Source: Ruminiclostridium sp.
GTDB taxonomy: Bacteria > Bacillota > Clostridia > Oscillospirales > Ruminococcaceae
DNA length: 38,456 nucleotides
Direction of reading: 5' to 3'
NCBI GenBank assembly: GCA_017635675.1
Contig: JAGBLA010000047.1
Coordinates: forward strand, 1 to 38,456
The position numbers and the translations under genes were made by a program. The notes under the pieces were generated by a model. That model did not search any database. It was not told the origin of the DNA and worked only from the letters and a program-made list of their open reading frames with translations. Of the stretch, positions 20,747-38,456 are shown one piece after another. Each line of letters begins with the position of its first letter. Position 1 is the first letter of the stretch.

Positions 20747-23677
20747 TCATGCAAGAATGTCATTGAGTGTTTTTTTGAGTGCGTTTATATCTATCGGCTT
20801 CGCGACGTGTGCGTTCATTCCCGCTTCGGACGCTTTCTGTACGTCCTCGCTGAATGCGTTCGCCGTCATCGCTATGACCGGTATCTCCGCAAGCTTCTTG
20901 TCAGGCAGCGCCCGTATCTTCCTTGCAGCCTCGTATCCGTCCATTACAGGCATCTGTATGTCCATAAGCACGGCATCGAAATCCCCCGGCTGTGACGCAG
21001 CGACCCTGTCAAGCGCGTCCTTGCCGTTCACCGCCGCTTCTACGGTAAATCCGAGGTGACGCAGTATCTTCGCCGCTATCTCGCGGTTTATCTCCACATC
21101 GTCCACGAGCAGCAGCCGCATTTTCGAGAAATCCGCTTCACGGCTCTCGGGCTTTTCCTCATGCCTTACCTCCGATGCGGCTATCCTGTCACCGAGCTTC
21201 AGCGGCAGATGTATCACAAATTCCGTTCCCTTCCCCGGAGCGGTGATAACGTCTATCGTGCCGTTCATAAAGTCGATTATGCTCTTGGTTATCGCCATTC
21301 CGAGACCTGTACCCTGTATGCCGCTCACCGTCGAGGTGCGCTCACGCTCAAACGCCTCGAACACCTTTTCTGCAAATTCCTCGTTCATGCCAATGCCGCT
21401 GTCTTTTACCCGAAGCTCGTATTCCGCGCTTTCACCGTCCTCCGACACACTCGTGCGGTCAAGCGTCACCAGGATATTCCCGCCCTCGGGGGTAAATTTG
21501 TATGCATTGCTCACAAGGTTCAGCAGTACGCGATTGAGCCGCGTCTTGTCGCACATTGCGGTACGGTCGCCTATGTCGCCGCAGTTGAGCCTGAAATCTA
21601 TCTTCTTCTCCTTCATCTGCGTCGAGAACATATCATAGACATCGTTCATGATGTGCCGCAGGTCGCAGGGCTCATACTCAAGCTCCATTTTCCCGCTTTC
21701 AATGCGGCTCATCTCAAGCACATCGTTTATAAGCGCCAGCAGATGACGGCTCGACCCCTCTATCTTGCCGAGGTACTCCTTCATCTCGTCAAATGTGGTC
21801 TCCTCGCGCTTTGCGAGCGCTATGTACCCTGTTATGGCGTTCATTGGCGTTCGTATGTCGTGCGACATATTCGACAGGAACACCGTTTTCGCCCTGCTGT
21901 TCGCCTCCGCCTTTGATTTCTGAAGCTCCATCTGCTTTTCACGCTTCCGCAGCGTGGAGTAGATGTTGAAAACGATGATAAGGCTGAGCATTATCAGCAT
22001 CATCTGTATGATGCTGCTGCTTAGCAGCGAGCGGCGCACTGTCTCCATCTGCTCTTCGAGATATGCGTTCTCCCCCGCCTGCTCCTCCTCAGTCTGAGTT
22101 ACTCCGTGCTCCTCAAACTGCCCGGAGTAATAGGTGCTGACATTGTTGATGACGTTCTCGGTGTTCTCCTGTGTGGATTGCCTTATCCACATCAGCGAGG
22201 TGAAGAAAATAAGGAACAAAAGCGCTATCCACACCACCGTAGAGTTGCCGTACCGCCTCTCCTTCTCCTGCGAGAAAACAAAACGGAAATAGATTATCCC
22301 GAGTATCGCCCAGAACGCGAGCAGCAGATACGACTCCGCCGAAAGCGCGTTCATTGCTATAAGGTCGGGCACGAGCAGCAGCAGCGCGATAAACGCGGAA
22401 ATGACCGTTCCCGCCGCGCCTGTTATCATCATTTTACGGTTTCCCTCTTTATGGGCGTTCTTGAACGCCGCTGCCGAGGTGTACGCGTATGCGACAGTGG
22501 AGCCGACGGTTATGACATCGACCACCCAGCCTATCGCCGTGCGCCCGAGGAACGGTATCACTGCCGACACTGCGGTAAGAAGAAGGATCGCGTTGCGCGG
22601 AGTTCCGTCCTTTGTCAGCACTCCGAACTGACGGGGAAAAATGCCGTCCTTGGACATAGAGTAGATAAGGCGGCTGGAAGCTATGCTGCTGCCGATAAGT
22701 CCGGTAAGTATCGCGCAGATAAGCGCCATACCGAGCAAAGCCATGCCCGCGCTGCCCCAGGTGGAGTTCAGCGCAAAGAATACCGGTATTCCCTCTATCC
22801 CCTCATAGCTGCCGAGACGGGCGACATACTCCGTCCAGTCCGCACAACCCTCCGGCAGCACTGTACCTGCCGTAAATGTCAGCAGTATGTAGGAAATGAC
22901 GCCTGCGATAATGGCTGATATCATTATGCCGAGCGACTTTTTTACAGGGAACTTGTACTCCTCCGTGGAGTTTGACACGGACTCAAAGCCCACGAACGCC
23001 CACGGTGCAAGTGCTATAACGCCGAGCACCTGTGAAACGGCTGATGTGTTGGTATTAAACGGCGGCTCGAAAGCCGATGCGGGGGTGTTTGTTCCGATGA
23101 TAGCAAGAATAAAGCTTGATACGATGCCAACGAACAGCAGCACCGCACATACAGTCTGTATGACCGCCGCAAAGCGTTTCGCGAATGCGCATATACACCC
23201 GAATACCGCAAGCACCGCAAGCTCCACGAGCACCTCTCCGATATATACGTCCCAGCCCGCTATGCTGTACATGTAACCTATCTTAAGCACGCCTCCGAAA
23301 AGATTCCGCGCCACAAGTGTTATGACCGAAAGATTTGCCCAGATTATCGAGACATAGGCAAGCATCATGAACCATGCGCTTAAAAAGCCGTGATCGCTGC
23401 CGAATGTATCCTTCGCGAATGTGAAGGAGCCGCCCGCATCGGGACAGCGCTTCATCATATAGCTGTAATTTATGGCTATCAGAAGTATAGCGAAAGCTCC
23501 GATGATCATACCGACAGCCGTTCCTACACCTCCCGCCATTGGCAGGAACGTGGTGCCGGGCATAACAAAAGCCCCCCACCCGACTATGCATCCGAATGAG
23601 AGCGCCCACACCGCAGGCGCGGAAAGGTATTTTGAAAGCGCAGGTGAAGTCTGCCTGCCGCCTGTTCTGTCATTCAA
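20747..23677 (-). CDS. Amino-acid permease fused to a hybrid sensor histidine kinase
   Basis: One 976-residue frame joins three modules. Residues 15-470 are an APC-superfamily amino-acid permease with about 12 membrane helices ([13 protein letters not shown] near the N-terminus). Residues 480-575 add two more helices around an extracytoplasmic loop of about 55 residues. From about 596 is a HisKA domain with His606 in [12 protein letters not shown], then an HATPase with [16 protein letters not shown] and GTGLGMAI. From about 848 is a receiver with Asp906 ([11 protein letters not shown]) and Lys960. All phosphorelay residues are intact. The start is a TTG at 23677, with AAGGA six bases upstream. 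It probably senses transport or occupancy of an amino acid or amine. The next phosphotransfer partner is not encoded nearby. guaA follows with an ATGA overlap. Confidence 0.93.
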
Positions 23678-28020: not shown

Positions 28021-28244
28021 GGGAACCTCTAAAAACCCAATTTGAGAGAAAAGGAGCTATCCACTTTATGCCGCTTTGTATGCGCGCGTCCTGCGCGCTT
28101 TTGGCGGCAATACCACAGCTTCCTGCCGTGACCGTCTACTGCGTCAAACCTCCTAACCGGGCGCCAGCCCGGCTTCGTCGGCTTTCCTTGTATCCGACGC
28201 GGCTATCTCATTTTCTCTTTTCAAAGCGGTTTTTAGAGGTACCC
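28021..28244 (+). repeat. MITE-like repeat element, full copy
   Basis: A 224-bp noncoding element with imperfect terminal inverted repeats of about 36 bp: it begins GGGAACCTCTAAAAACC and ends GGTTTTTAGAGGTACCC. TTGA flanks both ends directly, a candidate 4-bp target duplication. The interior holds further inverted repeats (CCGGGCGCCAGCCCGG is self-complementary). A second copy, reversed and with an internal deletion, is at 38316-38456, and a minimal copy is at 30454-30486. No transposase is encoded, so movement would need one from elsewhere. Confidence 0.82.
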
Positions 28245-28252
28245 TTGAATTA

Positions 28253-31347: not shown

Positions 31348-32016
31348 TCAGCCGTATATCCTGCATACGGCGTATTTTGAGAACGCGCCCTCTCTCGTGT
31401 TGGAAAGCTGCACCGCGTCACGTATTATATCCGGGAGAAATCCGTCCCACTTTACTTCGAGTATCCTCGCTTCCGAGACCGGAACGGTGATACAGTCCGC
31501 ATTGAGAAAATCCGTGCAGCGGATACCGCTCCTTATGTCGTAATCGAGAGTGACACGGACATTCCCGGCAGGGAATATAAACGGCTCACGGGTGTAGTCA
31601 ACTATTGTCTTCGGTCTTATTCCCTGTGTGCACATCTTCATGTAAAGCTCCCGTATCAGCGGGTGCTCCGACGAGTTCATCCACTCGGTATCGCCGTCAA
31701 CTATCGACTGTGCCTGCGCAGCTGTGAGAGGTGCGCTCTGCTTTGTTCCAAGACTGTCTATCTTGCTCTTTTTTTCTAGGTGAATGACCGAGGTGTTGCC
31801 GTTATAGTATCTGATACGGAACTTCTCACGTCGGTTCACTCCGTCTATCTTCTCCCGCAATGCCTTATCGGCGGTATTGTCGAAATACAGGCTTCGTATG
31901 AAGTATTTCCCGCCCACCGCGTGGGGATCGGGGTACGCTACCGCGTTTAGCCTGTGACGGAGAATGAGCATATCGGGATAGCTTATCTCGTGCTTCACTT
32001 CATGCCGGAAGTTCAT
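31348..32016 (-). CDS. VTC-domain polyphosphate polymerase
   Basis: A 222-residue single VTC domain, a triphosphate-tunnel-metalloenzyme fold that in yeast Vtc4 builds polyphosphate from ATP. The N-terminal FRHEVKHEISYPD, basic tunnel strands YFIRSLYFDN and EKFRIRYYN, HLEKKSK, and the acidic late strands (RVTLDYDIRSG, ARILEVKWDG) are all present. GGTGAGG precedes the ATG at 32016. It is the first gene of a two-gene operon with DUF4956. Direct repeats with 11-bp period in the promoter suggest an OmpR-type regulator, possibly phosphate-responsive. Confidence 0.92.
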   Translation of the reverse strand: MNFRHEVKHEISYPDMLILRHRLNAVAYPDPHAVGGKYFIRSLYFDNTADKALREKIDGVNRREKFRIRYYNGNTSVIHLEKKSKIDSLGTKQSAPLTAAQAQSIVDGDTEWMNSSEHPLIRELYMKMCTQGIRPKTIVDYTREPFIFPAGNVRVTLDYDIRSGIRCTDFLNADCITVPVSEARILEVKWDGFLPDIIRDAVQLSNTREGAFSKYAVCRIYG

Positions 32017-32236: not shown

Positions 32237-32968
32237 ATGGACATACAGGTTTTACAGGATTATTTACCGCTCTTCGGAGAAGCCGCGCTTCTCACGGTGG
32301 AGCTCGGTCTCGCGGGGATAGCGCTGTCAACGGTCATCGGGCTTGTCTGCTCGCTTGTGCAGTATTACAGGATACCCGTCGCAAGGCTCATAGTGCGAAT
32401 CTATATCGAGCTTTCAAGGAACACTCCGCTGCTTATCCAGCTTTTCTTCATATATTACGGGCTGCCGAAGGTCGGCATAAAGACCGACCCGGCAGTCTGC
32501 GGGGTGGCAGGGCTTGCGTTCCTCGGCGGCAGCTATATGGCGGAGGCATTCCGCAGCGGCCTTGACGCGGTCGAGAAGATACACGTCGAAAGCGCGCAGT
32601 CACTCGGTCTGAACAGATTGCAGACATTTATATATGTGGTGCTCCCGCAGGCGGTATCAACGAGCATACCGCCGTTCACCGCGAACGTGATATTTCTGCT
32701 CAAAGAAACGAGCGTGTTCTCGGCGGTGAGCTTAATGGATCTGATGTTCACGGCGAAGGATCTTATCGGGCTGTATTACAATACCACGGAAAGCCTGTTC
32801 CTGCTTGTGGTGTTCTATCTGATAATACTCCTGCCGGTATCGCTCCTCGGAACGTATCTCGAACACAGGCTCGGTGTCCCGACGGTAAAGCACGGCGGCA
32901 AAAGCAGGATAAACGGCGGCACTGAAGAAAACGCAGGAAAGAAGGTCGTCCCGAATGTGGGGAATTGA
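32237..32968 (+). CDS. Polar amino-acid ABC transporter permease 1
   Basis: A HisM/GlnP-type inner-membrane subunit of 243 residues with about five helices and the ABC contact motif EAFRSGLDAVEKIHVESAQSLG, which couples to the ATPase. The N-terminus is typical (LLTVELGLAGIALSTVIGL) and RNTPLLIQLFFIYYGLP marks the polar amino-acid family. TAGG is a weak ribosome site before the ATG at 32237. A charged Gly/Lys/Asn tail ends the protein. It overlaps the second permease by 14 bp. The promoter motif shared with metY suggests a sulfur amino acid such as cystine as substrate; this is inferred. Confidence 0.92.
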   Translation: MDIQVLQDYLPLFGEAALLTVELGLAGIALSTVIGLVCSLVQYYRIPVARLIVRIYIELSRNTPLLIQLFFIYYGLPKVGIKTDPAVCGVAGLAFLGGSYMAEAFRSGLDAVEKIHVESAQSLGLNRLQTFIYVVLPQAVSTSIPPFTANVIFLLKETSVFSAVSLMDLMFTAKDLIGLYYNTTESLFLLVVFYLIILLPVSLLGTYLEHRLGVPTVKHGGKSRINGGTEENAGKKVVPNVGN

Positions 32969-33623
32969 AGTCATTTTCAAAGGAAAAAACTTTCTGCGTC
33001 TGCTGGATGGGCTTGGCACAGCGCTTGAAATAAGCGTCATCGCGGTGCTTATAAGCATACCGCTCGGTATTATCCTCGGAATTCTCATGGCGGGCAGAAA
33101 TCCTGTTATAAAGGCGGTTCTTCGGGTATATCTCGACTTTATCCGCATCATGCCGCAGCTCGTGCTGCTGTTTCTTGTATTCTTCGGCACGACAAAGGCA
33201 TGGGGCTGGGATCTTTCGGGAGAGGTATCATCGGTCATCGTGTTCTCAATGTGGGGCGCGGCAGAGATGAGCGACCTTGTGCGCGGATCGCTCGCGGCAA
33301 TACCGAAGCACCAGTACGAAAGCGCTCAGAGTCTCGGTTTCACGCCGCTGCAAACAAAGATATACATTATTATCCCTCAGACCGTAAGGCGGCTGATACC
33401 GCTTTCGATAAACCTTATAACACGAATGATAAAGACCACATCTCTCGTGCTTATGATAGGCGTTGTGGAAGTTCTCAAGGTAGCACAGCAGATAATCGAA
33501 GCCAACCGCATGACTGCGCCCGAAGCGGCATTCGGGGTATATCTGTTCGTATTCGCGCTGTATTTTGCGGCGTGCTTTATACCGAGCCTTTTCGCAAGGC
33601 ATCTTGAAAGGAAATGGAGCTGA
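32955..33623 (+). CDS. Polar amino-acid ABC transporter permease 2
   Basis: A second HisM-type permease of 222 residues forming a heterodimer with the upstream subunit. It has about five helices, DFIRIMPQLVLLFLVFFGTT and the contact loop GSLAAIPKHQYESAQSLGFTPLQ. The start at 32955 overlaps the first permease by 14 bp and its ribosome site (GGAAAGAAGG) is inside that gene. The ATPase gene begins five bases after its stop. No solute-binding protein is encoded in the operon. Confidence 0.92.
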   Translation: MWGIEVIFKGKNFLRLLDGLGTALEISVIAVLISIPLGIILGILMAGRNPVIKAVLRVYLDFIRIMPQLVLLFLVFFGTTKAWGWDLSGEVSSVIVFSMWGAAEMSDLVRGSLAAIPKHQYESAQSLGFTPLQTKIYIIIPQTVRRLIPLSINLITRMIKTTSLVLMIGVVEVLKVAQQIIEANRMTAPEAAFGVYLFVFALYFAACFIPSLFARHLERKWS

Positions 33624-33628
33624 TACGA

Positions 33629-34363
33629 ATGTCGGAACTGCTTGAAATAAAGCATCTAACAAAGAGCTTCGGCGAAAACATCATACTTAACGATATAAAC
33701 ATCACCGTAAAAAAAGGCGAGGTCGTTGTGATACTCGGCCCCTCGGGTTGCGGCAAAAGCACGCTCCTGCGGTGTATCAACGCGCTTGAGGATATACAGG
33801 GCGGTGAGATACTCATTGACGGAGAAAGCATCGGCAGGGGCAGCAGGAACATGGAAAAAGTCGGAATGGTTTTCCAGAGCTATGACCTTTTCCCACACCT
33901 GAACGTACTCGACAACATCACTCTCGCGCCGCGCAAGGTGCAGAAACGCGCAAGAGCCGACGCCGAGGCGGAAACCCGCGAGCTGCTGAAACGCGTGGGG
34001 CTGTCAGACAAGGAAAAAAGCCTGCCGCGGGAGCTGTCCGGCGGTCAGAAACAGCGTGCCGCGATAGTGAGAGCGCTGATAATGCACCCGGAGCTCCTGC
34101 TTTTTGACGAGGTGACCGCTGCGCTCGACCCCGAAATGGTGAGAGAAGTTCTTGAAGTCATTCTCGACCTCGCAAAGCAGGGTCGCACGATGATGATAGT
34201 CACCCATGAAATGCAGTTTGCAAAAGCCATAGCCGACCGCGTGATAATGATAGACGGCGGCAGCATAGTCGAGGAGGCTCCGCCCGCACGGTTCTTCACC
34301 GCTCCCGCCACGGAGCGCGCACGAAAGTTCCTCGACACATTCACCTACGAAAGCGTAAGATAA
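33629..34363 (+). CDS. Polar amino-acid ABC transporter ATPase
   Basis: A 244-residue nucleotide-binding subunit. Walker A is GPSGCGKST, the Q-loop is VFQSYDLFPHL, the signature is LSGGQKQRAAIVRAL, Walker B is LLLFDEVTAALDPE and the switch His is in IVTHEM. It belongs to the GlnQ/HisP group. The ATG at 33629 has GGAG nine bases upstream; an ATG at 33614 overlaps the permease and is less well placed. It ends the operon before a bidirectional terminator. The binding protein must come from elsewhere in the genome. Confidence 0.95.
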   Translation: MSELLEIKHLTKSFGENIILNDINITVKKGEVVVILGPSGCGKSTLLRCINALEDIQGGEILIDGESIGRGSRNMEKVGMVFQSYDLFPHLNVLDNITLAPRKVQKRARADAEAETRELLKRVGLSDKEKSLPRELSGGQKQRAAIVRALIMHPELLLFDEVTAALDPEMVREVLEVILDLAKQGRTMMIVTHEMQFAKAIADRVIMIDGGSIVEEAPPARFFTAPATERARKFLDTFTYESVR

Positions 34364-34373
34364 CATAAAAATA

Positions 34374-34405
34374 AGCCCCGTGAGTCTTAGTCTCACGGGG
34401 CGTTT
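34374..34405 (-). terminator. Shared terminator of the ABC and sulfur operons
   Basis: A 10-bp perfect stem GCCCCGTGAG/CTCACGGGGC (34375-34384, 34392-34401). The minus-strand side is followed by TTATTTTTAT, the plus side by GTTTCTT. It lies between the convergent ABC and sulfur operons. Confidence 0.82.
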
Positions 34406-34406
34406 C

Positions 34407-34814
34407 TTATTCAATTACCAGCTCTTCCTTGACGGCGGTATCGCCTTCGATGTGAAAGGAATTGAGTACGGGGTCATCGTTCATGAGCGAGAGTATCATG
34501 TAGCTCGCGGTGCTGTCATAAGCAAGCCGCTTGTCCTCGTCCGAGGGACGTGAGGGAGAGACGGGGTGGGAATGCCAGTTACCGAGCTGCTCAAGCCCGT
34601 TGGCGCGCATATCCTTCACCGCCGCAAGCTGTTCACGCGGGTCAAGGGTAAAGTGCTCCTCGGCATGGTCGGTATTGGTGAGGATATACACTTTTTCGAT
34701 AATCTTGTCATCGCCGTCAAAGCGTCCCGCGATAAGCCCGCAGGCTTCCACGGGAGCCTCCTTTTTCGCGTGGGCGAGGATAGTTTCATAGTCGCTCCTG
34801 CGCATCTTTATCAT
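34407..34814 (-). CDS. JAMM/MPN metalloprotease, HcyD- or Mec+-like
   Basis: A 135-residue zinc peptidase of the M67 clan. The JAMM residues are all present: Glu23 in EACGLI, His81 and His83 in NWHSHPVSP, Ser91, and Asp94 in the HxHPx6SxxD pattern. Bacterial relatives trim the C-terminus of ubiquitin-like sulfur carriers (HcyD in Wolinella) or release cysteine from CysO (Mec+ in Mycobacterium). Here the carrier gene two positions upstream encodes a C-terminus GGGAV, giving a direct reason for the protease: removal of Ala-Val. ATGA overlap with the ThiF-like gene. Last gene of the operon. Confidence 0.9.
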   Translation of the reverse strand: MIKMRRSDYETILAHAKKEAPVEACGLIAGRFDGDDKIIEKVYILTNTDHAEEHFTLDPREQLAAVKDMRANGLEQLGNWHSHPVSPSRPSDEDKRLAYDSTASYMILSLMNDDPVLNSFHIEGDTAVKEELVIE

Positions 34815-35617
34815 TTCATATCACACTCCGCCTGTTCGTAATCTATAAGCTCCGTTATCGTCGGGTGGTCTCCGCAGACCGCGCAGTTATGCGTATCCGG
34901 CGGCAGCTTTACCTTGTGCCACTCCATTTTCAGCGCGTCAAAAGTCAGCAGATACCCCGTCAGAAGCTCGCCTGCGCCGACAATGTACTTTACAGCCTCC
35001 ATAGCCTGCAAAGAGCCGATCACGCCGCCCATAGCTCCGATAACTCCCGCCTGCTTGCAGGTCGGCACAGCGTCCTTCGGCGGCGGATTTTTGAAGACAC
35101 AGCGATAGCACGGACCCTGTCCCGGCACATAAGTCATAAGCTGTCCCTTGAAACGTATGATACCCGCGTGTGAAAACGGTTTCTTCGCCATTACGCACGC
35201 GTCGTTTATCAGAAACTTCGCGGGGAAATTGTCCGTGCCGTCAAGTATGAAATCATAGTCCGAGATCAGATCAAGCACGTTCTCGCTCGTAACGAATGTG
35301 TGGTACGTTTTCACCGTTACGTCGGGGTTTATGGCTTCCATTGTTTCTTTCGCGGACTGTACCTTGGGCTTTCCGATGTCGGCGGTAGTGTGTATGACCT
35401 GCCGCTGCAGGTTTGAGAGATCCACCTCGTCCGCGTCAACGATACCGATAGTTCCTACGCCCGCCGCAGCGAGGTACAGCGCCGCAGGTGCTCCCAGTCC
35501 GCCCGCGCCGATTATCAGCACCTTCGCCTGTGAGAGCTTCTTCTGTCCCTTCGCGCCTACCTCTTTCAGAATTATATGTCGGGAGTAGCGCTCAAGCTGT
35601 TCATTCGTGAATGCCAT
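34811..35617 (-). CDS. ThiF/MoeB-family sulfur-carrier adenylyltransferase
   Basis: An E1-like enzyme of 268 residues that adenylates the C-terminal glycine of a sulfur carrier so that sulfur can be loaded as a thiocarboxylate. The ATP site GAGGLG is at 37-42, followed by DADEVDLSNLQRQ, DGTDNF (126-131), the zinc cysteines Cys170/Cys173 (CYRC) and Cys245/Cys248 (CAVC), and a Cys187 in VPTCKQAG, at the position of the conserved ThiF/MoeB Cys. No rhodanese domain is fused, so sulfur must come through another protein. Its ATG overlaps the carrier stop by one base, and the Shine-Dalgarno sequence lies in the carrier's last glycine codons. Confidence 0.94.
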   Translation of the reverse strand: MAFTNEQLERYSRHIILKEVGAKGQKKLSQAKVLIIGAGGLGAPAALYLAAAGVGTIGIVDADEVDLSNLQRQVIHTTADIGKPKVQSAKETMEAINPDVTVKTYHTFVTSENVLDLISDYDFILDGTDNFPAKFLINDACVMAKKPFSHAGIIRFKGQLMTYVPGQGPCYRCVFKNPPPKDAVPTCKQAGVIGAMGGVIGSLQAMEAVKYIVGAGELLTGYLLTFDALKMEWHKVKLPPDTHNCAVCGDHPTITELIDYEQAECDMK

Positions 35618-35826
35618 TACACCGCACCTCCGCCCATGAAGTACAGAAATTCCACAGTATCGCCGTCACTGAGCGTTTTTTCGGCAAGCTGTGAGTTCTC
35701 CACAAATTCATCGTTCACCGTGACCGTGACGTACTGCGGTGTCTCCACGTTTTCAAGCTCCACGAGCTGTGCGACGGTTATCCCGTCAGCGTATTCCTTT
35801 ATTTTACCTGCAACTGTTATCTTCAT
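35617..35826 (-). CDS. ThiS-like sulfur carrier with masked C-terminus (HcyS-like)
   Basis: A 69-residue ubiquitin-fold sulfur carrier. The start MKITVAGKI and late DGDTVEFLYFMGGG follow ThiS/MoaD. The chain ends Gly65-Gly66-Gly67-Ala68-Val69, whereas active carriers end at Gly-Gly, so it must be trimmed by two residues before adenylation. The adjacent JAMM protease is the obvious processing enzyme. Not a thiamine ThiS: no thi genes are near, and metY is in the same operon. ATGA overlap with the thioredoxin gene. The function as donor for homocysteine synthesis rests on context and the Wolinella HcyS precedent. Confidence 0.9.
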   Translation of the reverse strand: MKITVAGKIKEYADGITVAQLVELENVETPQYVTVTVNDEFVENSQLAEKTLSDGDTVEFLYFMGGGAV

Positions 35827-36152
35827 GCCTTTGTCTCCTTTATCCGTTCATATTCTGTCATCAGCGCCTCTTTTTTGGTCATTCCGCGCAGCCGCGAAAT
35901 TTCCCTTCCCTCACTGAAAAATATCAGTGTGGGTGAAGCCTGTACATCGTACTGCTCCACAAGTCCGGGCTCATAGCCCGCATTCACCTTGTATATGCCG
36001 AGTTTGCCGTCAAGCTCGCTTTCGAGCTGTGAAAGCACAGGCGACAGCATCTTGCAGGGTACGCAGGAGTCCGAGTAGAACTCCACAAGTACCGGCTCAC
36101 GCGCACTCAGCACCTTGCTGCCGAAATCCGCCGCGGTTATCCTCTCCGCCAT
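35823..36152 (-). CDS. Thioredoxin-like protein of the sulfur operon
   Basis: A 109-residue thioredoxin fold with the redox pair Cys30-Val-Pro-Cys33 (DSCVPCK) and the cis-Pro loop ASPTLIFF. The CVPC active site differs from the canonical WCGPC and lacks the Trp, so its redox partner may be specific. It lies directly after the TusA-like gene with no intervening base and overlaps the sulfur carrier by ATGA. In this context it could reduce a persulfide or disulfide on TusA, the carrier or the ThiF-like enzyme. Confidence 0.92.
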   Translation of the reverse strand: MAERITAADFGSKVLSAREPVLVEFYSDSCVPCKMLSPVLSQLESELDGKLGIYKVNAGYEPGLVEQYDVQASPTLIFFSEGREISRLRGMTKKEALMTEYERIKETKA

Positions 36153-36398
36153 TCAATCACCGACCTTCTGTACGATAAGACGGTATGTTCCGTCATCGTT
36201 CTGCGCAAGCTCCAGTACCTTGTGACCCTCTTCCTTTAAGCTGCGCGGCACGTTCTGCACCGGCTCTCCGTCGTTGAGACGTATCTCAAGTATATTCCCG
36301 TCGTCAAGCTCCTCCAGAGCCACCTTTGCCTTTACGAAGGTTATCGGGCAGTTCACGTCGGTGATATCTACCGTATCTGTGATATTGAATTCAGCCAT
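36153..36398 (-). CDS. TusA/SirA-family sulfur-transfer protein
   Basis: An 81-residue TusA-like domain. The sulfur-binding Cys17-Pro18 is in DVNCPITFVKAKVALEEL, matching the CPxP-type family motif with Thr at the second Pro. TusA proteins accept persulfide sulfur from cysteine desulfurases or other donors and pass it on. It overlaps the metY stop by eight bases and is followed immediately by thioredoxin. Its likely role is delivery of sulfur to the thiocarboxylate carrier, replacing the rhodanese domain absent from the ThiF-like enzyme. Confidence 0.93.
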   Translation of the reverse strand: MAEFNITDTVDITDVNCPITFVKAKVALEELDDGNILEIRLNDGEPVQNVPRSLKEEGHKVLELAQNDDGTYRLIVQKVGD

Positions 36399-37626
36399 TT
36401 CCGTTGTCTCCTTTTATTGCGTTTTCAAAGTCATTTATAAGATCTCCGATGTCCTCGATGCCGACACTCACGCGTATCGTATCATCGTAAACTCCCGCTT
36501 TCTCGCGCTGCTCCTTTGTAGAGTGCAGGTATATTGTGCTTGCGGGGTGTATCACGAGGGTGCGTATATCACCTATATTCGTGGCGATAAGCGCGTATTT
36601 CAGGCGGTTTATCAGCGCAAATGCCTTTTCCCTGCTGCCCGCGCGTATCGTTAAGATACCGCCGCCCCTGCCGCCGAGCTGCGACTGTACAAGCGGGTAA
36701 TACGGGCTGCTTTCCAGCGCGGGGTAGTTTACCGTAACGCCGTCAAGGGAACTCAGATGCTCCGCAAGCTTTTTCGCGTTCGAGCATATCCGCTCCATAC
36801 GCAGCCCCAGCGTTTCCAGCCCAACCGAGCACATGAACGCGTTGAACGGCGACAAACAGGCTCCCGCATTGCGCCAGAATCCGTTTCTCAGCTTTGCGAG
36901 ATAGCTGTTCCTGCCAAAAATACGGTACTTTCCGAACTGCGGGAATTTCCCGCTGTCCCATCTGAAACTGCCGCTGTCAACTATAACTCCCGCTATCGAA
37001 TTGCCGCCGCCGTTTATGTACTTTGACGCGGAGTGGACTACGATATCCGCTCCGTGCTCAAACGGACGGACGAGGTAAGGCGTCGCCGTAGTGCTGTCTA
37101 TTATAAGCGGTATGCCGTTGTCGTGGCAGACACGCGCAACAGCGTCTATATCCACGACATCGAGCTTCGGGTTGCCGATAAGCTCGGTAAAAACCGCTTT
37201 CGTGCGCTCGTTTATGAGCGGCGCGATGCTTTCCGCAGTCACACTTTCGGCAAATCGGGCAGTTATCCCGAATCCGGCGAGGTCGCCGAACAGGTCTATC
37301 GTCCCGCCGAAAAGTCCTGACCCCGCGATGACCTCGTCACCCGCCTGCAGGATATTCAGCAAAGCCATAGTCACCGCTGACATTCCCGAGGAACACGCAA
37401 CTGCTCCTATGCCGCCCTCAAGAGCGGCAATCCGCTTCTCAAACGCAGAAACTGTAGGATTTCCGATACGGGAATATGAAAATCCCGGAGCACGGTTTGC
37501 GAAAACCTTTTCAAGCTCCTCGGCGCTCTCGTGAGCGAACGCGCTCACCTGATATACTGGCGTCTGTGTGGAGCCGTATCTGTCTTCCGCCGCCGCGCCA
37601 TGCAGCAGCGAAGTATTGAAACCCAT
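36391..37626 (-). CDS. metY: O-acetylhomoserine sulfhydrylase family enzyme
   Basis: A PLP-dependent enzyme of 411 residues from the Cys/Met metabolism family. The Schiff-base lysine is Lys202 in HSASKYINGG, with Asp177 and the YSRIGNPT phosphate loop near 51-58. MetY uses sulfide to convert O-acetylhomoserine to homocysteine; in Wolinella the sulfur comes from a protein thiocarboxylate. The operon partners here (carrier, E1-like enzyme, JAMM protease, TusA, thioredoxin) point to the same chemistry. The ATG at 37626 follows AAGGTCGGTGAT. First gene of a six-gene operon with a strong promoter. Cystathionine synthase or lyase activity is an alternative. Confidence 0.93.
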   Translation of the reverse strand: MGFNTSLLHGAAAEDRYGSTQTPVYQVSAFAHESAEELEKVFANRAPGFSYSRIGNPTVSAFEKRIAALEGGIGAVACSSGMSAVTMALLNILQAGDEVIAGSGLFGGTIDLFGDLAGFGITARFAESVTAESIAPLINERTKAVFTELIGNPKLDVVDIDAVARVCHDNGIPLIIDSTTATPYLVRPFEHGADIVVHSASKYINGGGNSIAGVIVDSGSFRWDSGKFPQFGKYRIFGRNSYLAKLRNGFWRNAGACLSPFNAFMCSVGLETLGLRMERICSNAKKLAEHLSSLDGVTVNYPALESSPYYPLVQSQLGGRGGGILTIRAGSREKAFALINRLKYALIATNIGDIRTLVIHPASTIYLHSTKEQREKAGVYDDTIRVSVGIEDIGDLINDFENAIKGDNGNG

Positions 37627-37658: not shown

Positions 37659-37691
37659 ATTATACTCCCTATTTCATACCAAGTCAATAGG
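37659..37691 (-). promoter_or_regulatory. Promoter and shared motif of the metY operon
   Basis: On the minus strand TTGACT (37682-37687), 17 bp, TATAAT (37659-37664). The -35 is inside CCTATTGAC (37683-37691), which is also at the ABC promoter (32156-32164); the two spacers agree at about 10 of 17 positions. Confidence 0.82.
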
Positions 37692-37830: not shown

Positions 37831-38262
37831 GTGAAGATATCGTCAAAAGTCGAATGCGGGATAATCTCGCTTGTGGATATATGCATATACTCAAATGACA
37901 GCGTGGTGACGGTAATAAATATCTCCGCGCGTCAGAACATCTCGGCGAAGTACCTCGAACAGATACTCCCCCAGCTCAGACAGGCAAATATAATCAAAAG
38001 CGTCAAAGGCTCACACGGCGGCTATACGCTCACCCGTCCGGCCGACAAAATTACTCTGCGGGACGTTATAAACGCCCTTGACCGCACTGTCCTTGAAGAT
38101 TATTCCGTCAAAGAGGACTCACGTATCGCAAGCGCGGTCTCGGAGTGCCTGTGGAGCAAGATGACCGCGTATCTGCAAAGCTTCACGGACAGCGTTACAC
38201 TGCGTGACATCGCGGACAGGCTCGCTTCCGACAGTTCGGCTCAGCCGATGTACTATATATAG
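37831..38262 (+). CDS. Rrf2-family regulator, CymR-like
   Basis: A 143-residue winged-helix repressor of the Rrf2 family: N-terminal MKISSKVECGIISLVDI, recognition helix SAKYLEQILPQLRQANIIKSVKG and wing SHGGYTLTRP. The middle region holds at most one Cys (near ASAVSECLW), so the three-Cys iron-sulfur site of IscR is absent; CymR, the cysteine-metabolism repressor of Bacillus, also lacks it. Translation starts at GTG 37831 with AGGAGG. It is divergent from the sulfur operon and probably controls it and the ABC transporter through the CCTATTGAC sites. CymR works with CysK, which is not in the window. Confidence 0.9.
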   Translation: MKISSKVECGIISLVDICIYSNDSVVTVINISARQNISAKYLEQILPQLRQANIIKSVKGSHGGYTLTRPADKITLRDVINALDRTVLEDYSVKEDSRIASAVSECLWSKMTAYLQSFTDSVTLRDIADRLASDSSAQPMYYI

Positions 38263-38315: not shown

Positions 38316-38456
38316 GGGTACCTCTAAAAACCGCTTTGAAAAGAGAAAATGAGATAGCTGCGTCGGATACAAGGAAAGCCGACGAAGCCGGGCTGGCGCC
38401 CGGTTAGGAGGTTTGACGCAGTAGACGGCGTGGCTAGCTCTTTTTCTCTCAAATTG
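38316..38456 (-). repeat. MITE-like repeat element, second copy (cut by window end)
   Basis: Starts GGGTACCTCTAAAAACCGC and is nearly identical to the reverse complement of 28021-28244 for about 105 bases, then resumes at the far end (TTTTTCTCTCAAATTG) after lacking roughly 66 internal bases. It runs off the window edge. The copy differs from the first by that internal deletion, as MITE families do. Confidence 0.82.

Follow-up and report, generated by a model that had tools for sequence, protein, structure and literature searches.

In the CysO/Mec+/CysM system of Mycobacterium, the small carrier protein forms a thiocarboxylate and a JAMM protease releases the amino acid from it, and a system in which HcyS, HcyF and HcyD act together with MetY was reportedly found in Wolinella succinogenes by Krishnamoorthy and Begley in 2011. 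Here, we analyse a six-gene operon, metY-tusA-trx-thiS-thiF-jamm, in a stretch of 38,456 nucleotides from Ruminiclostridium sp. (JAGBLA010000047.1, assembly GCA_017635675.1; hereafter the window), which is the whole of contig C214 of a 2.86-Mb metagenome-assembled genome (MAG; completeness 85%, contamination 7%). Operons of this type have been catalogued before. Row 4e of Table 1 in Iyer 2006 (PMC1779556; this and later statements refer to the accessible part of that paper) combines a ThiS/MoaD-like carrier, a JAB protease, an E1 enzyme without rhodanese domain, SirA/TusA and an O-acetylhomoserine sulfhydrylase; its clusters always hold SirA, of the TusA family, and its species list covers low-GC Gram-positive bacteria, with abbreviations that we take to stand for Wolinella, Geobacter and several Clostridia. 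The window operon has all of these components together and, by its gene content, is a member of this published type. What appears to be new is its linkage to a sulfur system built around an encapsulin. On balance, we judge it probable that homocysteine is produced here through protein-thiocarboxylate sulfhydrylation and that, in this lineage, the operon is the spending arm of a sulfur island, the other arm being a family 2A encapsulin with its cysteine desulfurase. The six genes are the following:

36391-37626, minus strand: metY, O-acetylhomoserine sulfhydrylase-like pyridoxal phosphate (PLP) enzyme of a short-loop type (411 aa; PLP Lys202; PF01053, 2e-111)
36153-36398, minus strand: TusA/SirA-like sulfur carrier (81 aa; CP motif at Cys17; PF01206, 5e-21)
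35823-36152, minus strand: thioredoxin (109 aa; CVPC at 30-33; PF00085, 2e-22)
35617-35826, minus strand: ThiS-like carrier (69 aa; tail MGGGAV; TIGR01683, 60 bits against a cut-off of 37.45)
34811-35617, minus strand: ThiF/MoeB-like E1 adenylyltransferase without rhodanese domain (268 aa; PF00899, 2e-89)
34407-34814, minus strand: JAMM/Prok-JAB metalloprotease (135 aa; PF14464, 4e-23)

All six genes are intact and co-directional, spanning 34407-37626, and they overlap (metY/tusA by 8 bases, trx/carrier by 4, carrier/E1 by 1 and E1/jamm by 4) or, in the case of tusA and trx, abut with a gap of 0. A preliminary description of this DNA had named the six genes with their active-site motifs and had depicted them as an overlapping or abutting one-strand run behind a single promoter. 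Profile searches bear out the identities; Lys202, CP, CVPC, the carrier glycines and the E1 and JAMM residues are in place, and the coordinates agree with the layout, a promoter-like site lying before metY. The E1 enzyme carries GAGGLG, CxxC pairs at 170-173 and 245-248, and Cys187, whereas the JAMM protein has a complete catalytic set (Glu23, His81, His83, Ser91 and Asp94). The closest solved relatives are 2kks for the JAMM protein (8e-44) and 2k5p/3cwi for the carrier (4e-11), 2k5p reading GGGK in the alignment.

Relatives were collected by one JAMM-protein scan of genome contigs, mostly of MAGs, and the best 80 of the 86 relatives constitute the 80 loci counted below; loci from separate family- and class-level JAMM searches are not part of these counts, some of the same genomes recur there (G096 is L050 and G019 is L068), and L050 and L134 are one genome. 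The neighbourhood survey that had been proposed as a check found that the gene order recurs: it is exact in 27 of the 80 loci, is interrupted only by a sulfite reductase gene between metY and tusA in 24, shows the same insertion and lacks trx in 5, and differs otherwise in 4. The operon metY was not seen in the remaining 20, where some contigs were cut and others had room for it (e.g., L060, L085, L093, L095 and L113). Orders repeated this often over 80 loci are not due to chance. The catalytic motifs are likewise retained, with the JAMM pattern HxH...SxxD in 80/80 relatives, E1 Cys187 in 77/78 and the CP motif of TusA in 68/69 of those tallied. Of the 73 scorable loci, 58 have thioredoxin between tusA and thiS; L108 and L110 have it ahead of jamm, which makes 60 operon thioredoxins in total, of which 32 read CIPC, 27 CVPC, and 1 is truncated before the motif; the CPPC thioredoxin of L093 is not the operon's and was left out of the 60.

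Several features align the operon with the Wolinella system. All carriers scored among the 80 loci (77/77) carry one or more residues beyond MGGG at their C-terminus, and a trimming protease is therefore needed. Four canonical sulfhydrylase/lyase structures (8sf5, 7kb0, 4kam and 8wko) have an insertion (~10 residues) after FPxF, whereas, in the alignment, the window MetY and structure 3RI6, which we take to be Wolinella MetY, both lack such an FPxF-adjacent insertion of the PDPSYHG type. At this loop, the operon MetYs (63/63) differ in length from the window protein by -2 to +1 residues, and the two MetY paralogues of the same genome, on contigs C69 and C173, are 11 residues longer. From 3RI6, we infer that the missing insertion may be a defining mark of the Wolinella type, and the short loop could provide a widened entrance for the carrier tail. 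The comparison with HcyS/HcyF/HcyD and MetY drawn in the preliminary description holds, the removable carrier tail, the E1, the intact JAMM set and the short-loop MetY all agreeing; the window run differs in also including tusA and trx. With CysO/Mec+/CysM, the operon would share the carrier thiocarboxylate and the release of the amino acid by JAMM, but where the cysteine synthase CysM would stand, it has MetY, of the Cys/Met gamma type (PF01053) and not of the CysM fold.

The same features bear on two other functional assignments. The ThiS, ThiF and JAMM proteins might belong to thiamine synthesis, to the thiolation of tRNA or to protein conjugation, with MetY working on free sulfide: NCBIfam calls the carrier ThiS, the E1 passes the MoeB (PRK05690) and ThiF (TIGR02356) cut-offs, and in genome G785 a gene for ThiH is present and a ThiG-like one was recognised by eye next to the cluster. 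We regard this as improbable, because the carriers extend past GGG (GGG-AV in the window), whereas the ThiS chain 2cu3 stops at GG, and because the linkage to a short-loop MetY is conserved; no thi genes, such as neighbouring thiG or thiC, were among the annotated genes of the window, which are only part of its genes. An E1-JAB, CBASS-like cassette for defence or protein conjugation, hinted at by weak PADLOC matches to E1-E2 and JAB models, was rejected as having a negligible chance of being correct, given that the best PADLOC scores (68 and 35 bits) compare with Pfam scores of 299 (ThiF) and 82 (Prok-JAB), that all six genes are assigned, with no E2 or CD-NTase, and that in relatives the cluster lies among sulfur genes.

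Cys187 of the E1 aligns with the cysteine of NCRTAGVV in solved ThiF, presumably the residue that forms the persulfide/acyl-disulfide in E. coli ThiF (Cys184). As an acyl-disulfide intermediate needs a reductant, this would provide a job for thioredoxin. The only other thioredoxin match in the genome, of the CGPC type, is 31% identical and has for a neighbour a thioredoxin-reductase-like gene, as judged by eye; in relatives, a thioredoxin reductase gene is found 3' of jamm in L133 and L139 (322 and 338 bits, against a cut-off of 343), and a thioredoxin-reductase-like gene, also named by eye, 3' of metY in L108. The preliminary description had presented both TusA and thioredoxin as additions of the Clostridia. 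Since the clusters of Iyer 2006, those of Clostridia included, always contain SirA, TusA is no innovation here; of the two, only thioredoxin goes unmentioned, the word having 0 occurrences in the text of that paper.

Gene content, order, motifs and linkage lead us to propose the following chemistry, in which the identity of the donor, the direction of sulfur flow and independence of free sulfide would be as conditional as each of the steps. The JAMM protease would trim the GGG-AV tail of the carrier to free its Gly terminus, the E1 would adenylate the trimmed carrier with ATP, and the sulfur donor would be TusA persulfide (or sulfide), the CVPC thioredoxin reducing the leftover acyl-disulfide or persulfide. 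The short-loop MetY might then join the carrier thiocarboxylate with O-acetylhomoserine into a carrier-homocysteine adduct, from which JAMM would free homocysteine.

Encapsulins are virus-derived protein shells. In Ruminococcus flavefaciens and relatives, three genes lie upstream of the operon on the same strand: E1R, a ThiS-E1-rhodanese fusion; a family 2A encapsulin (PF19307, 2e-94); and CyD, a cysteine desulfurase extended by a long N-terminal stretch. The genome of the window (G000) has the same module past the end of the window's contig, out of sight of the preliminary description, on another contig, C205, the end of which matches that of the window:

C205 (L123:7499-11617): E1R, family 2A encapsulin and CyD, then suf genes
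Window, 38335-38456: contig end, the last 122 bases being identical to the reverse complement of the C205 end

Following CyD, contig C205 carries sufC, sufB, sufD, sufS and sufU (sufC and sufD recognised by eye or from their similarity to SufB) and then ends. Its shell protein matches PF19307 at 6e-92, and its cargo scores 781.9 bits with f2_encap_cargo1, the model for cysteine-desulfurase cargo of family 2A encapsulin nanocompartments, just under the cut-off of 800, the catalytic domain starting from residue 155. We therefore classify C205, on the strength of shell and extended-N-terminus cargo, as a putative family 2A cysteine-desulfurase encapsulin, with the enclosure of CyD being predicted. 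The 122-base end is a copy of a dispersed repeat, of which an opposite-orientation copy lies at 28132-28245 of the window; the same repeat ends C205 and probably broke the assembly there. Because the ends lie in this repeat, their overlap alone is no proof that C205 and C214 adjoin. In L141, L142 and L143, one contig each holds E1R, encapsulin and CyD, the suf genes, a reversed rrf2 and metY-tusA-trx-thiS-thiF-jamm, in the orientation of C205 and C214.

Likeness to the family 2A encapsulins described so far (SrpI; PMC8049743 and PMC8346489, in their accessible parts) lies in the PF19307 shell and the CyD with an extended N-terminus. The operon companions of family 2A cysteine desulfurases given by Giessen and colleagues (PMC8346489, same limit) are rhodaneses and serine acetyltransferases, whereas the companions here are E1R, the MetY thiocarboxylate operon and, in frequent cases, another JAMM. 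E1R has an internal GG before its E1 domain in 24/27 cases by pattern and a rhodanese CxxGKRS loop in 26/27; if this internal GG were adenylated only after cutting, the second JAMM that adjoins it in several lineages would be explained. The N-terminal stretch of CyD contains a segment like ELEALANSLFPDFD (L059:4377-6104 and relatives), a candidate encapsulation signal, which follows a strict pattern in 14 of the 25 long copies and occurs as near variants in several others. CyD of genome G111 is split into two reading frames (L136:9915-11789).

The E1R-encapsulin-CyD clade adjoins the operon in at least seven gene orders and in three phyla. The module is located directly upstream in R. flavefaciens (L059 and others: E1R-Enc-CyD-metY-tusA-trx-thiS-thiF-jamm, Enc denoting the encapsulin) and upstream with only a reversed rrf2 between in L040, downstream of the operon in L045 and in the Fibrobacter MAGs L093, L095 and L097, and downstream of metY in G785 (L155), while a second JAMM is present in L133 and the cluster is reordered in L108 and L110. 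In L135 (4785-19001), a single same-strand run starts at genes resembling those of adenosine phosphosulfate (APS) reductase, CysD and CysN (by eye), proceeds through jamm-E1R-Enc-CyD-serine acetyltransferase-metY-sulfite reductase-tusA-trx-thiS-thiF-jamm, and ends at siroheme-like genes. In L109 (937-9688), from Succinivibrionaceae, the module surrounds thiS-thiF-jamm-tusA between eno-, isp- and mutS-like genes (by eye), a gammaproteobacterial-looking neighbourhood that suggests horizontal transfer of both modules together. Upstream regions offer a further hint. Promoter-like sites precede metY in 29 of 59 such regions; among the 30 without, 3 are too short and 13 have CyD directly before metY. 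None of the 13 loci in which CyD immediately precedes metY has such a site (0/13), which would suit co-transcription, although we attach little weight to this.

Encapsulins of PF19307 were detected in 26/40 and 7/39 of the genomes behind the 80 loci (the encapsulin of L109 was taken from the locus, its genome being outside the 79 searched). Rows of the JAMM scan were chosen because of their JAMM, so their linkage is no independent test. Searches that did not depend on JAMM found PF19307 in 5/119 family, 6/293 class and 7/398 phylum genomes, samples that partly overlap and each include the window's own genome, for 16 distinct genomes in all. Six of these are of the E1R type (G000, G094, G096, G111, G385 and G785), and 10 hold bare pairs of encapsulin and CyD, as far as the retrieved sequence extends, which in several cases stops at a contig end. 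The JAMM/MetY operon is present in 6/6 E1R-type genomes (in G785 as seen from its locus) and in 0/5 of the bare-type genomes searched for JAMM (G098, G213, G235, G310 and G318), a difference with a Fisher probability of 0.002, or 0.008 without the window's own genome, relatedness being ignored. The modules are linked in G094, G096, G385 and G785; in the genome of the window, a contig end separates them. Of the 119 family genomes, 12 have the JAMM protein, 5 the encapsulin and 4 both (hypergeometric probability 3e-4; 2e-3 without the own genome). On the encapsulin tree, the E1R type forms one branch (SH-aLRT 98; 26 rows, counting L046 with its truncated E1R of 350 aa) that spans Bacillota, Fibrobacterota and Pseudomonadota, with the 10 bare-type rows outside it.

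The sulfur source may be more than one. Sulfite reductase belongs to the row 4e type, in which it or sulfate assimilation genes adjoin the operon; in the window, no such genes adjoin, and the genome instead carries its sulfite reductase on contig C191, adjacent to genes for CysD, siroheme and APS reductase, so that sulfate-derived sulfur is also available. Given the in-operon sulfite reductase of 24 + 5 of the 80 loci and that of the own genome, sulfite is as natural a supply as the sulfide-free relay from TusA through the carrier to MetY put forward in the preliminary description. Sulfur would be provided by sulfite reductase and, in encapsulin genomes, also from cysteine through CyD and the rhodanese domain of E1R. 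The fullest version of this route, a protein-thiocarboxylate transsulfuration, would take cysteine sulfur through CyD in the encapsulin to the E1R rhodanese, a JAMM having to cut the internal GG of E1R, and/or to TusA, then to a thioredoxin-aided carrier thiocarboxylate and finally to homocysteine by MetY, without cystathionine or free sulfide; we advance it only tentatively. No MetB/MetC-like enzyme was among the 5 matches in a search of the own genome (the operon MetY, the two MetY paralogues, a class V aminotransferase and an Orn/Lys decarboxylase-like protein), which is weak evidence in a MAG that is 85% complete. An evolutionary swap of sulfite reductase for encapsulin was considered as a rule and rejected. 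In 57 scorable loci, in-operon sulfite reductase and encapsulin largely exclude each other (neither in 5, encapsulin only in 23, sulfite reductase only in 27 and both in 2; Fisher 4e-9); on the ThiF tree, waiving support yields 5 contrasts by sulfite reductase and 10 by encapsulin, the independent contrasts are few, and the own genome's sulfite reductase lies elsewhere and is not lost.

Several observations weigh against a sulfur island with two cooperating arms. As many as 46 of the 79 operon genomes searched lack a detected encapsulin, and the shell is therefore not required. In G111, both modules are present and unlinked, and a ThiF relative of 228 aa lies about 5 kb from the encapsulin of L157, one of the bare-type loci. 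On the ThiF tree, only 2 supported contrasts by sulfite reductase and 3 by encapsulin remain, and the inverse association of in-operon sulfite reductase with encapsulin is not significant. The promoter-like site is also absent in 14 loci without CyD before metY. In 15 of the 73 scorable loci, no thioredoxin gene stands between tusA and thiS, 2 of these having it before jamm instead, and thioredoxin becomes rarer farther out (4/13 strong class-level loci, own excluded, with 1.5-kb flanks). The two long-loop MetY paralogues of the same MAG could make homocysteine without a carrier, and mis-binning of the Fibrobacter loci is possible. A plain sulfate-to-homocysteine operon of the row 4e or Wolinella type, with the encapsulin module as a mere neighbour in a sulfur island and no sulfur passing from shell to carrier, is a possibility to be taken seriously, if not the one we prefer. 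It accords with the frequent in-operon sulfite reductase, with the many operon genomes devoid of encapsulin and with Iyer 2006 (PMC1779556), whose row 4e, in its accessible part, shows no encapsulin, whereas the lineage of the window has one beside the operon. Adjacency in varied orders across three phyla, and the presence of the operon in all E1R-type and none of the tested bare-type genomes, argue against mere neighbourhood.

Cysteine might also be the product, with a MetY-like enzyme acting on O-acetylserine, as CysM does with CysO, and refilling the pool that CyD strips. A serine acetyltransferase gene adjoins metY in L135 and L155, which counts against homocysteine, and lies beside CyD in five loci (L093, L095, L109, L135 and L155); two of these enzymes, when tested, passed the EpsC model and failed the cysE model. 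Moreover, the best model for the window MetY, TIGR01326 (431.7 bits, below its cut-off of 495.1), spans O-acetylhomoserine and cysteine synthase activity. Nevertheless, we find cysteine unlikely as the product, since serine acetyltransferase is a general companion of family 2A encapsulins (PMC8346489, as far as accessible), homoserine acyltransferase (PF04204) occurs in 13/16 genomes searched, own included, and the short loop is common to 3RI6. Homocysteine formation in the spending arm of an encapsulin-linked sulfur island remains our preferred reading.

The operon is flanked by the following elements:

37659-37687, minus strand: promoter-like site TTGACT-17-TATAAT ahead of metY (11/12 consensus matches)
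34375-34401, both strands: bidirectional terminator-like hairpin, 3' of jamm and of a convergent ABC transporter
37831-38262, plus strand: divergent Rrf2-family regulator at the contig end (PF02082, 2e-28)

The scan behind these sites gave 7 of the promoter-like and 4 of the terminator-like kind, where shuffled sequence gave 3.9 of each. The nearest models for the Rrf2 regulator are CymR and IscR, both matched under their cut-offs (CymR at 93.4 against 195 bits). A palindromic candidate operator ahead of metY, CCTATT-N12-AATAGG, occurs in 1 of 59 upstream regions, that of the window itself, and was discarded as a conserved site. The convergent transporter (32237-34363) is of the polar amino-acid, cystine-like ABC type; in the close relative L141, an extra gene for a 300-aa lipoprotein-like product, perhaps a binding protein, lies between the ATPase and jamm, and the window lacks it. 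Elsewhere, the window encodes a protein of 976 aa in which an amino-acid permease is fused to histidine kinase and receiver domains (20747-23677) and a VTC-domain, polyphosphate polymerase-like protein (31348-32016).

Finally, in the literature within reach, which excluded most subscription papers and all supplements, nothing was found that joins encapsulins with MetY, TusA or a thiocarboxylate, and the fate of the cysteine-derived sulfur is left open in the accessible part of the eLife 2021 SrpI paper (PMC8049743). The recurrent linkage of encapsulin and operon suggests where the sulfur of the shell goes and offers a testable destination, for which Ruminococcus flavefaciens ATCC 19208 (L059) and YAD2003 (L062) are named strains. 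If true, this would account for the way in which anaerobes of the rumen and gut pass sulfur on without its escaping as sulfide.

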